A stretch of 22,057 bases of DNA from IMG/VR virus record IMGVR_UViG_3300008113_006560, positions 1 to 22,057 of that record. One strand, 5' to 3'. The position numbers and the translations under genes are program-made. Source of the stretch: a virus. Under the pieces are notes generated by a model. It was not told the DNA's origin, made no database searches, and saw only the letters and a list, made by a program, of their open reading frames with translations. This document shows positions 2,152 through 13,705 of the stretch, one piece after another (positions within the stretch are counted from its first letter, which is position 1; each line of letters starts with the position of its first letter).

Positions 2152-2997
2152 TTAAAATGTTCCACCCTCAAGAGAATTCTTCCGAGGTTTAATCTCTACT
2201 ATGTCCGATTTCTTTATGACTTCTGTATCTTCCATGAACAATTCTACACTAAGTGCTGTCGATTTGGCAACCTCTTTCTTCTTCTTTACCTTAGGTTTGG
2301 ATGATTCTATGGATTCTAATTCTTCTTCTTTTAATCTTAGGTATGTTTGATTAGAAGCAATCAATAACAAAACGGCAAGTGGGTCAAATACCACAATGAT
2401 AATAAGAATAACCAGTCTTACAGCTTTATCTATAAAACCGGCATCATCTTTTGTATAGAATAATTCGGCAATGTATTGAATCGGACCTACTTCTGCCAAC
2501 AGAGTGTTTTCTTCTTTCAGTAGAGGTAACTTTTCATTCGACAACCTTTTCATCTCAGCTTGCACTTCTTGTATTTGAACATCAATCTTTCGTGATGCTG
2601 TTGCTGGGTCGCCGGCTCTTTGAAGTAAATAACTCAATCGTTCTTTTGCAATCTTCTCTTGTGTTTCTAATGTTTTTAACTGAACACTATTTGCACCAAT
2701 ATTTACATTTGTATCTAAATGTGCTTTAGATAAGTAACCAAAAATACCCATCGATGTGATTGCCATCAATAAAATTATGGCAATCAAAAGATAGTAACGC
2801 ATTGCTTGCATTGTAACAGACCAATTGTTATATAGCCAAGAAATTGTTACCAATTTAGATAACTCTAATACTGTACCCATCACAATAATTGGCCAGTATG
2901 AACCTGGAAATATCTGTGCAAGTCCGATAACCGAATAGTAAGCAGCAACTGCTGATAAAGCAATTGCGCTAATAAAAGGTAACAGGACTTGTATCAT
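2152..2997 (-). CDS. Membrane protein with four helices and a central coiled coil
   Basis: The protein is 281 aa and its function is unknown. Hydrophobic segments lie at about 3-27, 35-55, 68-89 and 192-215. Between the third and fourth lies a charged, heptad-like region (about 105-170, e.g. KTLETQEKIAKERLSYLLQ) that should form a coiled coil. After the last helix comes a lysine- and glutamate-rich tail of about 65 residues (EEELESIESSKPKVKKKKE). The even number of segments would place both ends on the same side of the membrane. It lies between the hydroxylase gene and uvsX, starting 1 base from the hydroxylase stop, so it is probably co-transcribed with replication genes. A role in altering the host envelope or excluding other phages is possible, but nothing in the sequence shows it. 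Confidence 0.85.
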   Translation of the reverse strand: MIQVLLPFISAIALSAVAAYYSVIGLAQIFPGSYWPIIVMGTVLELSKLVTISWLYNNWSVTMQAMRYYLLIAIILLMAITSMGIFGYLSKAHLDTNVNIGANSVQLKTLETQEKIAKERLSYLLQRAGDPATASRKIDVQIQEVQAEMKRLSNEKLPLLKEENTLLAEVGPIQYIAELFYTKDDAGFIDKAVRLVILIIIVVFDPLAVLLLIASNQTYLRLKEEELESIESSKPKVKKKKEVAKSTALSVELFMEDTEVIKKSDIVEIKPRKNSLEGGTF

Positions 2998-3545
2998 TAT
3001 GGGTTTGATTTTGAATGTGGCACATCAAAGACAAAGGTGATTCTTGTGCAATCACCAACATTCTCTGCACCGTGTAATAGTTTATTATTGAACCACAACA
3101 ATGTACCTGGTTCAACAATCACTTCTTCATTTCCAACCATATACTTATATCGACCTTGAATTGATAAATGATATCTATCTTTCGTAAGGTAATAAGTGCC
3201 TTCATCTATGTGTCGGCCAACTGTACCACCAACTTCTAATGATAGAAATCCACATCGTTTGAAATCTTTGAAATGTCTTTTGAGAAAACTAATTACCTCG
3301 GTGTGCCTGTAATATGCAGTAGTTGGAATACAAATCTCACTATCACCAACAAAATCTTTTATATCTGTTACGCCACCAACAACTAACTGCAATACACCAG
3401 CAGGCAAATCATCAAAGCCACGGTCAATCAAAGATTGAGCACCTTCTAAATCCTTTTGATTTTCCCAATCTTCAGGATATTGTTTCAGTTGATTAATTAT
3501 CTTTGAAACATTAATGCCTGTTTTAATGACACGAATATTATCCAA
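2997..3545 (-). CDS. Aspartyl/asparaginyl beta-hydroxylase-like 2OG-Fe(II) oxygenase
   Basis: This is a predicted iron- and 2-oxoglutarate-dependent hydroxylase of about 182 aa. The double-stranded beta-helix signature is present. HIDEG (about 112-116) supplies the H-x-D iron ligands, LLHGAENVGD holds the distal iron histidine (about 158), and the arginine of CTRITFVFDV (about 168) would bind 2-oxoglutarate. YHLSIQGRYKYMVG and EPGTLLWFNN are typical of the Asp/Asn hydroxylase family. The substrate is unknown. No ATG begins the frame. I chose the TTG at 3545 because GGAGAG (3551-3556) precedes it by 5 bases; another TTG at 3572 would add 9 residues. The chosen ribosome site lies inside the 27-bp repeat shared with the end of the polymerase gene, so it would have existed before the endonuclease gene was inserted. 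Confidence 0.82.
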   Translation of the reverse strand: MDNIRVIKTGINVSKIINQLKQYPEDWENQKDLEGAQSLIDRGFDDLPAGVLQLVVGGVTDIKDFVGDSEICIPTTAYYRHTEVISFLKRHFKDFKRCGFLSLEVGGTVGRHIDEGTYYLTKDRYHLSIQGRYKYMVGNEEVIVEPGTLLWFNNKLLHGAENVGDCTRITFVFDVPHSKSNP

Positions 3546-3564
3546 AGAAACTCTCCAATGAATT
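3538..3564. repeat. 27-bp perfect direct repeat, copy A (downstream of the endonuclease gene)
   Basis: This is identical to 4135-4161, offset by 597 bases (199 codons). On the minus strand it encodes the last eight codons and stop of the endonuclease. It also contains the GGAGAG ribosome site and TTG start of the hydroxylase gene. Identity ends at a mismatch on each side (3537/4134 and 3565/4162). Confidence 0.97.
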
Positions 3565-4131
3565 AATTTCAATACTTTTAAATCTATTCAGTTCCATATT
3601 TTCTTTATGTTTTTTAGTTGAAATAAAAACCATATCTTTTTTATTGGAGTAAGGTAATAACATTGTTTTTCCATGTGTTGGATATTCCATAGTTCTAAAT
3701 GGTATTTTTAATTTAGATGATTCTTCATAATTATGCATTATTTGTGCAATTAGATTTGGATAAAAATAACAAGAAGGACTGTTTTTAATACCAAACATCT
3801 CTTTAACATTTTCACCACATAATGTAGTTATTTTTAGTGGATTTCTTTTCTCTTTTGGTTTATAATTTATATCATCACTAAAGATTTTTTCAAATGTTGG
3901 TTCATCATAATCAAACCATTCACCATTTATGTGAAATTCTCTCAGTTGTTTATGATATTTTTTCTCTGTAAAGAAACTATGTTCCTCAGACCTACATTCA
4001 ATTTGATAAATTACATTTAGAATATTAGGATTTCCAGTTTGTAAATCAGAAAGTCGTTGTTCTACATTATTTGCTTTACCAATTTTTATTGCTTTAGATT
4101 TTTCATCTAATATGAAATAAACATAACTCAT
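3538..4131 (-). CDS. GIY-YIG homing-type endonuclease (T5orf172/MUG113 family)
   Basis: This predicted mobile DNA endonuclease has 197 aa. The N-terminal domain (about 1-85) carries the T5orf172 form of the GIY-YIG fold: YVYFI at 3-7, AIKIGKANNVEQRL at 14-27 with the conserved arginine at 26, QTGNP at 31-35, and NGEWF at 69-73. The rest (about 90-190) is unrecognised and may bind the target DNA. The gene starts three bases after the polymerase stop. Its last eight codons plus stop are identical to those of the polymerase (NSLESFFG) because they lie in a 27-bp direct repeat. It is visibly more AT-rich than its neighbours, which fits recent acquisition. It interrupts an otherwise tight polymerase-hydroxylase junction. 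Confidence 0.88.
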   Translation of the reverse strand: MSYVYFILDEKSKAIKIGKANNVEQRLSDLQTGNPNILNVIYQIECRSEEHSFFTEKKYHKQLREFHINGEWFDYDEPTFEKIFSDDINYKPKEKRNPLKITTLCGENVKEMFGIKNSPSCYFYPNLIAQIMHNYEESSKLKIPFRTMEYPTHGKTMLLPYSNKKDMVFISTKKHKENMELNRFKSIEINSLESFFG

Positions 4132-4134
4132 AAT

Positions 4135-4161
4135 TTATCCAAAGAAACTCTCCAATGAATT
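4135..4161. repeat. 27-bp perfect direct repeat, copy B (end of the polymerase gene)
   Basis: This is identical to 3538-3564. On the minus strand it encodes the last eight codons and stop of DNA polymerase. Together the two copies bracket the inserted GIY-YIG endonuclease gene, like the duplicated flanks expected after repair of a cut at this site. Confidence 0.97.
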
Positions 4162-6693
4162 CTTTTTCTCAGTCGACCAGCCCATACAATCAAGAATCAC
4201 TTTAATTGGTTCAACAAAAGATTTATCAAATTGTGTATCGTAATCAATATACATCTGCATATCAAACTCTTTTGGTAATCTTTGAGGAAAAGATAATACT
4301 GAATCTTTAAAAGGATTTGGTTGCTTAAGATAGGTAAATTTTAACTTCTCACCTTCTTGAATGAACGGATATTTTTTATCTAAACCTTTTTGTTTAAGAT
4401 AATGATTGTATATGATTGCACCCTTAACATGAATAGGTGTGCCTTTCTTATACATCATAACACTATCAGAATATGTTTTCAGTCCGTTCAAACCTCTTGG
4501 GAAAGAAATGTCCTCAACAGGTAAATTCTTAAACTCTGTTTTGAAGTCATCGATAAACTTATGTATATCTTCTTCGGTACCATTCAACATAATACCAATT
4601 GATTGGCGCATCTTCTCACGAACAGCTGCAGGTGTCGATGACTTAACCATCTCAAGACCCATCACTTTGATTTGAGGTTCGTTATATTGTACACCTTCAT
4701 TGTTGTAGATGTTTAGAATATATCGTTTCTTGGCAGTCCAAATACCTTTATCAGAAAGACCTTCACGTTTCATTTCCATCTTTTGTTTGTATGCGTGAAC
4801 ATATTCAGCAAGTTCTTTATAACTCGCATCAATAAACGGTTGGATTTTATCTTCACATACACGGTCCATGAAGGTAATAACTTGTTGTTTGTCAATTCCT
4901 GTAGAGGTAGAAGCTTTCTGTCCCGTACCATACACTTTGTCAACAAGTGGACCAAAGCGGAGATAAATCGAATCTGTGTCCGAGGCGATAACATAATCTA
5001 TTCCAGTAGTCTTTAAAAGTTTATTCATATACTCATTTAGCTTGTTTTCAATCCAACGAATTGATAACTGGCCAGCCAGAGTTACAGCCAATGCTTGTCG
5101 CAAATCATAGAAGCGGAAGTATTGTGAACCAAGAGCACCATAAGCTGAATTTAATGAAACTTTCTTTGCTAGTTGTAGATTATTATATCGAGCAATCTTC
5201 TTTTCTATTTCATATAATTTAGTTTTGTCTTTTTCGTTTTCGTAGTCTTGCTTTGCTTTCAGCATTAACTTCTTAAACTTCTTTCTATCTTCATACATTT
5301 CTTCCAACATCGTAGGTAAGAAACCTTGTTTGTCAGTACGGAAGAATTGACCATTTGGTGTGAGTGTAACATCACTTAATTTTGAAGTATCAACATCTTT
5401 GTTCAGCATCTTTTCAACAGAAACACCATTCATAATCACATCACGCATCTCATCTGTATAATCAGATGGCTCAATTAATGTTTCTGGTGAAATGTTATAT
5501 TGCATCATCAAATGAGGATACAAACTGTTCAAGTCAAACGATGCAACCCAATTGTGTAGGCCAACTTGTGGGTCTTTAACATATGCACCTTCAAATGCGG
5601 ATGTTTTATCTTTAACAACTCTTGGTGGCACAACAATCTTTTTATCTAAAAGATATGAGTATGTCATAGAATCCCACATACGAGTTTGTGCAAACACATC
5701 ATCATAGTTTGATTTTGTATCATATGCAAGAGTAATCGCCAACTCAATCAGTTTTAACTTATCATCAAGTTTCATAATCAAGTCAACGTCTTTGATGTTA
5801 TACTCAATAAACTTTTGATAGTTCAGTCTATACAAAGCATGAAGATTATCATACTCATCATATGCAATCTTACCTTCACCAAGTTCTACTTGTGCAATAT
5901 TGTCAAGACGATACGATTCTTGTGATTTACCACCTGGCGCATACCATTTGTATAACTCAATGTAATCTAGTGCAGATACACCAAGAAAATCATAAGCAAC
6001 CATCTCACGACCATTAACATTGGCCTTGCGTTCACTAATAATATTCCAAGGTGATAACTTCTTCGCCTCATCTTCATCAAGAATTTTACGCAAACGATTA
6101 ACAAGGTAAGGCATATCAAAGAACTTGATATTCCAGCCAGTAATAATATCAGGACAATTTTCTTGCCAATAGTTTATGAAATTCTTGCATAGTGAATATT
6201 CATCTTTGCATTTGACATATCTTTCGGTGCCTTGTACGTTGTAGTCACCACAACCAAATACAACACAAGTGCCATCAAAATATTTCACACAGATAGCGGT
6301 GATAGGCTCAAGAGCAAGATATGGGTCAGGAAAACCATTCTCTGAACCAACTTCAATATCAACTGCACCAATAGATATGTTTTCGATATCCCATTCTACC
6401 ATGCCACGATGTTGTTCGGTGATGAAAGCATATTCAAATCTATTCATGCCATAGATTTTGAAATTCTCAACGCCTTCATATAGTTTGATGAACTCTCTCG
6501 CATCACGAATGCCATCAAACTTCATTGGCTCGAGTGTTTCACCCTTCAATGTTTTCCATGGTGATTCTTTTTTGGATGGCAAAAACAAAGTAGGCGAGTA
6601 AGGAATTTTCACCTTGACTCGCCTGCCATTCTCTACGCCACGATAAAGTATGTTGTTGCCTACGCTGGCAACCGATGTGTAAAATTTATTCAT
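4135..6693 (-). CDS. 43: DNA polymerase, family B, T4 gp43 type
   Basis: This is the replicative phage polymerase with 3'-5' proofreading, 852 aa (T4 gp43 is 898). The exonuclease motifs are intact: Exo I VDIEVGS (D112, E114), Exo II GWNIKFFDMP (N188, D193) and Exo III YNIKDVDL (Y298, D302). The polymerase motifs are intact: A FDLNSLYP (386-393), B KKVSLNSAYG (510-519) and C SDTDS (571-575). The C-terminal peptide SLESFFG occupies the position where gp43 proteins dock on the sliding clamp. No intron or intein interrupts the gene, but an endonuclease gene has been inserted directly after it. Unlike in T4, gp43 is separated from regA by about 3.6 kb of accessory genes. The ATG at 6693 has no strong ribosome site. 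Confidence 0.98.
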   Translation of the reverse strand: MNKFYTSVASVGNNILYRGVENGRRVKVKIPYSPTLFLPSKKESPWKTLKGETLEPMKFDGIRDAREFIKLYEGVENFKIYGMNRFEYAFITEQHRGMVEWDIENISIGAVDIEVGSENGFPDPYLALEPITAICVKYFDGTCVVFGCGDYNVQGTERYVKCKDEYSLCKNFINYWQENCPDIITGWNIKFFDMPYLVNRLRKILDEDEAKKLSPWNIISERKANVNGREMVAYDFLGVSALDYIELYKWYAPGGKSQESYRLDNIAQVELGEGKIAYDEYDNLHALYRLNYQKFIEYNIKDVDLIMKLDDKLKLIELAITLAYDTKSNYDDVFAQTRMWDSMTYSYLLDKKIVVPPRVVKDKTSAFEGAYVKDPQVGLHNWVASFDLNSLYPHLMMQYNISPETLIEPSDYTDEMRDVIMNGVSVEKMLNKDVDTSKLSDVTLTPNGQFFRTDKQGFLPTMLEEMYEDRKKFKKLMLKAKQDYENEKDKTKLYEIEKKIARYNNLQLAKKVSLNSAYGALGSQYFRFYDLRQALAVTLAGQLSIRWIENKLNEYMNKLLKTTGIDYVIASDTDSIYLRFGPLVDKVYGTGQKASTSTGIDKQQVITFMDRVCEDKIQPFIDASYKELAEYVHAYKQKMEMKREGLSDKGIWTAKKRYILNIYNNEGVQYNEPQIKVMGLEMVKSSTPAAVREKMRQSIGIMLNGTEEDIHKFIDDFKTEFKNLPVEDISFPRGLNGLKTYSDSVMMYKKGTPIHVKGAIIYNHYLKQKGLDKKYPFIQEGEKLKFTYLKQPNPFKDSVLSFPQRLPKEFDMQMYIDYDTQFDKSFVEPIKVILDCMGWSTEKKNSLESFFG

Positions 6694-10719: not shown

Positions 10720-11103
10720 TCATTTCCTTAATCCACCTGTATCGGCTTGTTCTTTTAATTGTTGGATTTGTTCATTACTAAGTAGGCGTAGAGCTTCACG
10801 AGCTTTGGTGTCTGAAAAACCATAGATGGTCTTAATACATTCTATATCTTCACTTTTTTCAGACTTAACCCACTTTGCAAAAGGTCGTTTTTGTGACCTA
10901 ATCGTATTTAGTAAAAAATCATATTGCAACTTTTTGTCGAGATGGTGGCGTTGGTTGACCTCATTGGCATATCCGATGCAGTCTTTGTGATAGGATAATG
11001 ACCGGTTAACGAGAAATGGAGTATATGACTTTTCTGTGACCTCATCGACAATCAGGTTCTTCTTGCCATACAAAATCTGGTTTACATAATCAAACGGATT
11101 CAT
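10720..11103 (-). CDS. 62: Clamp loader small subunit, T4 gp62
   Basis: This is the non-ATPase subunit of the loader that opens the gp45 ring with gp44. It has 127 aa, shorter than T4 gp62 (187). It is recognised by FDYVNQILYGKK, PFLVNRSLSYHKDCIGYANE, QRHHLDKKLQYDFLLNTIR and the C-terminal YGFSDTKAREALRLLSNEQ. It lies immediately before regA, the T4 order. Its start overlaps the end of the split nuclease gene by 14 bases. Two foreign-looking genes separate it from gene 44, unlike in T4, where 44 and 62 are adjacent. Confidence 0.93.
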   Translation of the reverse strand: MNPFDYVNQILYGKKNLIVDEVTEKSYTPFLVNRSLSYHKDCIGYANEVNQRHHLDKKLQYDFLLNTIRSQKRPFAKWVKSEKSEDIECIKTIYGFSDTKAREALRLLSNEQIQQLKEQADTGGLRK

Positions 11104-11500
11104 AAAATTGTACCAATGTATTTTGTTGTTGAAATTGTGGTTCTTTTACCTCTTCCAATTTTTTCTGTTTATAGTCTAATAAAAACTGTTGATTTTCACT
11201 TCGTGAGGAATGTATTTTATTCATAACCACAGCGAAAGATACATCCATCATCTCACAGAACTGTTCACCCGTTACTATCTTCAGGTAGTCTAGTCCTTCA
11301 TACAAACTAACATTCCTACCAGATGCACCTAGAAAATTGACAACAAAGATTTTAGTTTCATATTCTGAATGTATTTCTTCTAAATGTAATTTCAATCTTT
11401 GATATTTGGCTTTCTCTCCATGTGCCTTCTTTGAGTCCATGTTTCTGAGATTAATCTTTAATTCATACACATAGATTATTCTTTTATCTTCATCTATCAA
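11090..11500 (-). CDS. C-terminal part of a frameshifted PD-(D/E)XK nuclease-like gene
   Basis: The frame is open from 11500, beginning with TTG (LIDEDKRIIYVYELKINL), but coding sense extends upstream to about 11553 as FLLHKPKFGAEVPDYVLIDEDK. Joined to the preceding fragment, this gives PDYVLIDEDKRIIYVYELK, a PD-x(n)-E-x-K arrangement of restriction-endonuclease-like nucleases, followed by NMDSKKAHGEKAKYQRLKLHL and a strand TKIFVVNFLG. The C-terminus is glutamine- and lysine-rich. Without the first 65 residues this fragment lacks the opening helix of the fold. If expressed as a full protein the gene would be about 200 aa. It sits between a small membrane protein gene and gene 62. Confidence 0.7.
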   Translation of the reverse strand: MIDEDKRIIYVYELKINLRNMDSKKAHGEKAKYQRLKLHLEEIHSEYETKIFVVNFLGASGRNVSLYEGLDYLKIVTGEQFCEMMDVSFAVVMNKIHSSRSENQQFLLDYKQKKLEEVKEPQFQQQNTLVQFYESV

Positions 11501-11694
11501 AACATAGTCAGGTACTTCTGCACCAAACTTAGGTTTATGTAACAGAAACTTTCCTGCTCAACAAAGTAACCAAACTTACAACAGGCAGATGCAAGACAAC
11601 TATAAAACTTAGCCGTTTCAAAATCACCTGTCAGTAAATAAATTGGATTATTGTATAAAGCTTTCTCATCTAAATTACGTTCATCAATAATCAT
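11497..11694 (-). CDS. N-terminal part of the same frameshifted nuclease-like gene
   Basis: The ATG at 11694 overlaps the stop of the upstream membrane protein gene by 4 bases. The frame reads MIIDERNLDEKALYNNP, then LTGDFETAKFYSCLASACCK and FGYFVEQES, after which the sense passes to the -1 frame at about 11545-11552 (AAAGTTTC on the minus strand). The remaining 16 codons of this frame (FCYINLSLVQKYLTMF) look meaningless. No canonical X-XXY-YYZ slippery heptamer lies in frame, so a one-base deletion, real or a sequencing error, is more likely than programmed frameshifting. Confidence 0.65.
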   Translation of the reverse strand: MIIDERNLDEKALYNNPIYLLTGDFETAKFYSCLASACCKFGYFVEQESFCYINLSLVQKYLTMF

Positions 11695-13021: not shown

Positions 13022-13705
13022 TTAGGCCTTTTCAAACTTAGAACCAGCTTCAGTTGTAATCCAATACTGTAAAGGAATCTTTTTGTTTGTGAAGTGTGAA
13101 ATGCCTTTAGATGAGATTTTAACATCATAAGCACCAGCCAAAACTTTGGTGATGTTTTCAGTTTTAAATACCATGCGATACTTATCACCATTACCTTTTG
13201 CAATTTCAAGTGCATCGGTGTGAGCAGCATCATTTGAGGTATCTAGTGTGATGATATTAATTGTTTCACCATTCGATTCGATCCCAATGTGAGGTGAACC
13301 TAGAACAGATGCACTACGCAAAATCCAATCAAAGTCTTCAGCTGTCATCTGAAAAGAAATCTCAGGGTCAGGCATTTGTAATTGTTTCTCTGGCGGTAAC
13401 GTGAGCATAGATGAATCGCAGAAACGATAATTGGTTTTACTACGACCTTTGTTACCAATGATAACAGCAGACTTTTCAGTAAACTCAAAAGTTGGAGTAT
13501 CTTTGTGTAAAGATACAACAGAAAGAAATTCGTTTAAATTGTAAACGCCAAAATTGGTAGTAATTTCTTCATTGATGGTAACTTCGGCCAAGATATTCTT
13601 ACCAGAAGATACAGTCTTTAGAACTTTACCTTTCTTAAAGTAAATGCCTTGATTGATGTTACCAAAGTTTTTTAGAACACTCAAGGTGTCATTAGATAGT
13701 TTCAT
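13022..13705 (-). CDS. 45: Sliding clamp, T4 gp45
   Basis: This is the ring-shaped trimeric processivity factor for gp43, also used for late transcription in T4. It has 227 aa, the same length as T4 gp45 within a residue. It is recognised from MKLSNDTLSVLKNFGNINQG at the N-terminus, which matches MKLSKDTTALLKNFATINSG of T4, with two clamp domains following. GGAG lies 6-7 bases before the ATG. A promoter is present just upstream (13735-13763), so genes 45, 44, 62 and regA probably form one unit. RegA is known to repress this gene in T4. Confidence 0.95.
   Translation of the reverse strand: MKLSNDTLSVLKNFGNINQGIYFKKGKVLKTVSSGKNILAEVTINEEITTNFGVYNLNEFLSVVSLHKDTPTFEFTEKSAVIIGNKGRSKTNYRFCDSSMLTLPPEKQLQMPDPEISFQMTAEDFDWILRSASVLGSPHIGIESNGETINIITLDTSNDAAHTDALEIAKGNGDKYRMVFKTENITKVLAGAYDVKISSKGISHFTNKKIPLQYWITTEAGSKFEKA

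Follow-up and report, generated by a model that had tools for sequence, protein, structure and literature searches.

The gene between the DNA polymerase gene (gp43) and a hydroxylase gene in this T4-like phage probably encodes a free-standing homing endonuclease, borne on a mobile cassette that includes a gp43-type clamp-binding tail; its clamp binding, cleavage and homing are predicted from sequence comparison. Free-standing homing endonucleases of phages are well known, while it is poorly understood how they locate and cleave DNA under replication and how repair then takes over. If a mobile nuclease carries the clamp-binding peptide of the polymerase, homing would be linked directly to the replisome.

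The window, by which we mean the whole stretch of 22,057 bases that was analysed, is an uncultivated virus record with homologues of gp45, gp44, gp62, RegA, gp43 and UvsX (Table 1). Its gp43 was found to align as far as the last residue of T4 gp43 (E 2e-132). Homologues of the hydroxylase start at the same codon position with either TTG or ATG, and the arrangement of GGAGAG and TTG was also observed in those relatives with an empty junction that use a TTG start.

Table 1. Features of the gp43-hydroxylase junction and the presumed clamp partner in the window
Feature	Position	Strand	Content or evidence
Aspartyl/asparaginyl hydroxylase-like protein, TTG start, MDNIRVIKTG...	2997..3545	-	Pfam PF05118 3.1e-7 (on longer ORF)
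Downstream block copy	3538..3564	-	Last 8 nuclease codons and stop; also hydroxylase ribosome site and start codon
Free-standing T5orf172/MUG113 (GIY-YIG superfamily) endonuclease, 197 aa	3538..4131	-	Pfam, PHROGs, family alignment, AF2 model
GGAGAG, candidate hydroxylase ribosome-binding site, 5 nt before TTG	3551..3556	-	Sequence
3-nt spacer ATT, gp43 stop to nuclease ATG	4132..4134	-	Sequence
Upstream block copy	4135..4161	-	Last 8 codons and stop of gp43 (NSLESFFG-stop)
gp43-type family B DNA polymerase, 852 aa, C-terminus ...TEKKNSLESFFG-stop	4135..6693	-	Pfam DNA_pol_B 5.7e-31 and exonuclease domain
gp45-type sliding clamp, presumed tail partner	13022..13705	-	PHROG processivity factor 2.8e-62; T4/RB69 clamp structures including 1b8h

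The 27-bp repeat

An earlier note on this DNA had described a perfect direct repeat bracketing a gene with T5orf172/GIY-YIG motifs. This was confirmed, as the same 27 bp occur at 3538-3564 and at 4135-4161, spaced 597 bp apart, and the bracketed gene matches both Pfam T5orf172 (PF10544, 1.3e-11, 45.3 bits, cut-off 20) and MUG113 (PF13455, 2.2e-12, 47.8 bits, cut-off 22.3). The block is the longest exact direct repeat of the window, and a chance origin was excluded because the longest repeats in simulated sequences (n=100, first-order Markov, window length) averaged 14.7, with 19 as the maximum. Read along the minus strand, the block is AAT TCA TTG GAG AGT TTC TTT GGA TAA, nine in-frame codons for NSLESFFG and a stop. 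As the note had also stated, both neighbours are preserved, with gp43 retaining its last codons and stop and the hydroxylase its GGAGAG (3551-3556) and TTG (3545-3543), and removal of 597 bp gives the direct polymerase-hydroxylase junction seen in relatives. A point absent from that note is that the downstream copy is in frame with the nuclease, which gives the nuclease the same eight C-terminal residues as gp43. One 27-bp block performs three jobs, providing the nuclease C-terminus, the nuclease stop and the start signals of the next gene.

The proposal that a mobile gene entered by duplicating the flank was upheld only in part. Insertion at the gp43 3' end with intact neighbours stands, but the second copy is more than a scar of entry because it lies within the nuclease frame, moves with the nuclease and recurs elsewhere with different codons. 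As an example, the local gp43 tail of locus L086 differs from that of the window at 3 of 27 positions while its nuclease tail is that of the window, which indicates that the L086 tail arrived with the nuclease. A pure one-time duplication in the window phage was therefore revised. Target-site duplication by a transposon was ruled out, since in L086 the second copy has travelled with the nuclease as part of its ORF, and the same site has been re-used. Nor is the duplication a simple fill-in of a staggered cut, because GIY-YIG enzymes such as SegA leave 2-nt 3' extensions (PMC2988022).

At the position of the spacer, other gp43-site cassettes were observed to carry AATATATT or TATATT. The hydroxylase start signals of the upstream copy (4129-4143, minus strand) now read TTG GAT AAA TTA TGA, a minicistron of four codons. 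Its stop and the ATG of the nuclease overlap, and the minicistron could couple translation of the nuclease.

The endonuclease

The protein is laid out as an N-terminal nuclease domain, a conserved C-terminal region, a short variable linker and the tail NSLESFFG. In addition to its two Pfam matches above the cut-off, it has a PHROGs homing endonuclease match (5e-7), and its match to Pfam GIY-YIG is weak and below the cut-off of that profile. A search of NCBIfam gave no match, and no Zn-finger DNA-binding domain was recognised by Pfam. Residues Y5, K16, G18, R26, E56, H60, E71 and W72 are invariant in 24 family sequences and represent conserved residues of catalytic type. The AF2 model (pTM 0.44) is of good confidence in the core and of about 55 in the last residues; its best credible Foldseek matches are the GIY-YIG proteins 1zg2 and I-TevI 1ln0 (catalytic domain), both weak (E 0.08-0.4).

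Empty and occupied alleles

Both empty and occupied alleles of the junction exist. Among 74 hydroxylase loci we observed 63 direct gp43-hydroxylase junctions, 7 with the nuclease and 4 that are other or truncated. Every empty junction contains one gp43 tail; when up to 6 mismatches were allowed, the block was detected as a single copy in 44 and as two copies in 0, the remaining junctions holding one diverged gp43 tail. The earlier note had asked for a comparison with relatives that lack the nuclease, and its expectation of a single copy agrees with these 63 junctions; neither empty relatives with two copies nor hydroxylases that start elsewhere with no such block were encountered. The near-identical empty relatives L004, L089 and L093 lack exactly the insert, having one block copy, no nuclease and a gp43 tail that runs directly into the hydroxylase. 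The L004 polymerase is 99% identical to that of the window, and the flanking bins of L089 and L093 are mostly 92-100% identical. An apparent insert between gp43 and hydroxylase in MH319741 proved to be a RecA-like gene in another order.

Mobility of the nuclease family

Relatives of the nuclease at useful similarity were found on virus contigs only, and a scan of genome contigs gave only one remote domain match. The gp43 3' end is occupied in loci of the window type and in L086/L087, L163/L164, L165, L166, L168-L170, L171/L172, L177 and L187. In L163/L164 the gene after the nuclease is a membrane-protein gene and not the hydroxylase, so that the constant partner is gp43.

The nuclease gene has moved horizontally and independently of its flanks. 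The nucleases of the window and L086 are 97% identical while their flanks are 89-90% identical, the identity changing at the gp43 stop and again beyond the second tail. Similarly, L165 and L166 have nucleases that are 90% identical and gp43 ends that are only 69% identical, whereas the hosts of L165 and L171 are 96% (gp43) and 94% (downstream) identical with nucleases at 83%. A single clade of gp43-site nucleases was rejected by the AU test on a tree built without the tail (p=0.0057, or 0.0036 without L177), and the gp43 3' end has been entered by the family on at least two occasions.

Other members of the family are located in the gp45-gp44 gap (L175), between gp44 and gp62 (L193, L195 and L196), after a helicase-like gene (L203) and at further intergenic positions. 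L193, L195 and L196 thus place the same endonuclease family in the clamp-loader junction, where sequence within the gp62 start provides the stop codon of the L193 nuclease. Between the gp44 and gp62 genes of the window we also noticed a gene (11090-11694, minus strand) that by eye has a PD-(D/E)XK-like nuclease motif, and for which Pfam and PHROG gave no match. This gene is one intact ORF in the relatives L214-L222, while a deletion has shifted its frame in the window; it overlaps the gp62 start and ends in QNTLVQFYESV, which resembles a clamp-binding motif.

The predicted clamp-binding motif

The window clamp matches T4/RB69 gp45 structures, among them the clamp-peptide complex 1b8h. The gp43 end of the window, EKKNSLESFFG, aligns with EKASLDFLFG of T4 gp43 and nearly to the end with RB69, and the motif is present in 45 of 46 distinct gp43 tails. 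In T4, gp43, gp55 and gp33 have similar and interchangeable C-termini that bind gp45, that of gp55 being placed on a divergent linker of variable length; a co-crystal of clamp and peptide is described in the same review (PMC2988020). The nuclease tail, being identical to the gp43 tail of the window, has the hydrophobic/acidic type of C-terminal motif that characterises the gp45 clamp-binding proteins gp43, gp33 and gp55.

C-termini were scored with a matrix made from 45 distinct gp43 tails, with 747 other ORFs, filtered by BLAST, as controls. Each of the nine separate gp43-site nucleases scored above at least 99.7% of the control ORFs, on a matrix that was chosen after the tails had been seen and with family members that are not independent. 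At other sites, 10 of 16 members ranked within the top 7% by the clamp-like character of their C-terminus. Six of these ranked within the top 1.5% (L167, L196, L192, L178, L191 and L203, where L192 runs off its contig and its C-terminus is possibly incomplete), and the others are L194, L173, L199 and L088. Several of these tails are very similar to the T4 gp33 end, NTLDFLL. With the same matrix no convincing motif was found in five or six non-gp43 members (L186, L188, L189, L193, L195 and L175). A clamp-type tail was likewise not found in T4 SegF, SegG, MobE and I-TevI, so a tail of this kind is not general to phage homing enzymes. The two top-scoring gp43-like C-termini among the control ORFs are TLEEFLMD (L152 5435-6247) and SIEKFF (L199 4589-5455), which belong to unrelated phage proteins, by eye one acyltransferase-like and one methyltransferase-like.

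Origin of the nuclease tail

In all nine separate gp43-site cassettes the nuclease C-terminus is gp43-like, often with different synonymous codons. Comparison of the two tails of each locus gave 18 synonymous codon differences, three of which are stop codons, and 8 non-synonymous differences (over eight codons). These data bear on a simpler explanation in which only preservation of the neighbours matters, the gp43 3'-end copy being carried since loss of the tail or of the hydroxylase start would be lethal or costly and the clamp-like peptide being a functionless by-product. The block does contain every signal that both neighbours need, and the same pattern is found with a different downstream gene in L163/L164. 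Furthermore, the nuclease tails of the window, L163 and L177 resemble the local gp43 tail at the DNA level and appear to be locally derived, and the summed distance of tails to their own host was below that of random pairing (p=0.002, from nine non-independent cases and with the truncated locus L155 ignored).

However, serine is encoded by AGY in the nuclease and by TCN in gp43 in five lineages, including L166, L168, L171 and L187, while the peptide is kept. This mismatch argues for an inherited tail that is maintained at the peptide level. Clamp-like tails were also observed far from gp43, where neither a tail that could be copied nor a shared downstream start is available (L167, L178, L192, L194, L199 and L203). 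We therefore regard insertion without a function for the peptide as possible but rather doubtful. Copying of the tail from the host and inheritance of the tail have probably both happened. The ribosome site and start of the hydroxylase, and its own origin as a gp43 copy, partly fix the tail of a gp43-site nuclease, and in such nucleases the peptide could be a hitchhiker.

The downstream repeat of L087 (806-832) differs by one base from that of its near twin L086, reading GGAAAG as in the gp43 copy of L087. This difference may be due to conversion between the two copies.

A model for homing

In the model that we favour, the junction at which gp43 and the hydroxylase gene of a T4-like phage overlap is the site of a free-standing homing endonuclease gene from the T5orf172/GIY-YIG superfamily, and the mobile cassette would extend from just past the gp43 stop to the end of the second gp43 tail. 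This tail would have three roles. It encodes the last eight residues and the stop of the endonuclease, and with SLESFFG, borne on a short linker, it would equip the enzyme with a C-terminal motif of the gp43 type for binding the sliding clamp. It also gives the next gene back its ribosome site and start codon. The enzyme is predicted to cut the gp43 junction of co-infecting phages in which this is uninterrupted, and repair of the break would copy the gene in, as with the Seg enzymes. The occupied allele would be protected because neither of its tails is still bordered by gp43 codons and the next gene together. By means of its tail the enzyme probably rides on gp45, and such tethering may help it to reach or cut replicating recipient DNA or may couple cleavage to repair synthesis.

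Alternatively, the gene might be a domesticated phage nuclease that no longer homes and that its gp43-like tail brings to the replisome, for example to exclude competing phages. Its conserved catalytic-type residues and replisome-like tail would suit such a role, recruitment into phage-satellite conflict is documented for other T5orf172 enzymes, and continued homing often cannot be read from sequence (PMC10448857). We consider domestication improbable, as the patchy presence of the gene in very close phages and its horizontal spread at the same site fit a gene that is active or recently active in mobility. A segmental duplication or template switch that flanked a resident nuclease by chance, with empty alleles arising as deletions between the repeats, is very improbable: the 27-bp repeat would permit exact recombinational deletion to an identical empty allele, but most relatives are empty across wide divergence (63 versus 7), the nuclease tree conflicts with the flanks and the site has been occupied more than once.

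Taken more broadly, the homing model may well describe a family of phage homing endonucleases tethered to the replisome by a C-terminal mimic of the polymerase clamp tail, which at gp43 sites would have come from an in-frame duplication of the last gp43 codons and would tie selfish cleavage and repair to replication.

Comparison with known systems

Precedents exist for free-standing homing endonucleases, for T5orf172 enzymes close to essential genes (PMC10448857) and for host 3' ends that are duplicated around endonuclease genes in mitochondria (PMC4019555). In the open-access literature we found no report of a homing endonuclease with a polymerase clamp-binding tail, which is weak evidence of novelty. 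The window gene resembles T4 SegA-G and MobA-E in being a short nuclease gene at a junction of conserved genes, often replication genes, that is present or absent among close relatives, and the Seg enzymes also belong to the GIY-YIG superfamily (PMC2988022). It differs from the Seg and Mob enzymes in matching T5orf172 rather than the classical GIY-YIG profile, and from SegF, SegG, MobE and I-TevI in its clamp-type C-terminus.

The T5orf172 enzymes of ICP1 and other phages share the nuclease domain, the adjacency to essential genes and modular C-terminal parts; 87% of them have Zn-finger DNA-binding domains, unlike the window nuclease as judged by Pfam, and the word "clamp" is absent from the text of that study (PMC10448857). 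In Aeromonas phage 25 (seg43) and related split polymerases an endonuclease is likewise tied to a T4-type polymerase gene (PMC2988022, PMC2993671). Those genes interrupt or accompany a split gp43, whereas gp43 of the window is whole and has its 3' end duplicated. A second copy of host-gene C-terminal coding sequence also flanks an endonuclease in the mitochondrial inserts of Phlebia cox2 and atp6 and Allomyces atp6; the fungal copy forms an alternative or replacement end of the host gene, while the copy in the window is the C-terminus of the endonuclease itself (PMC4019555). The T4 late transcription factors gp33 and gp55, which are clamp-bound, similarly have a gp43-like clamp motif at the C-terminus, on a variable linker in gp55, but unlike the window gene neither is a nuclease or mobile.
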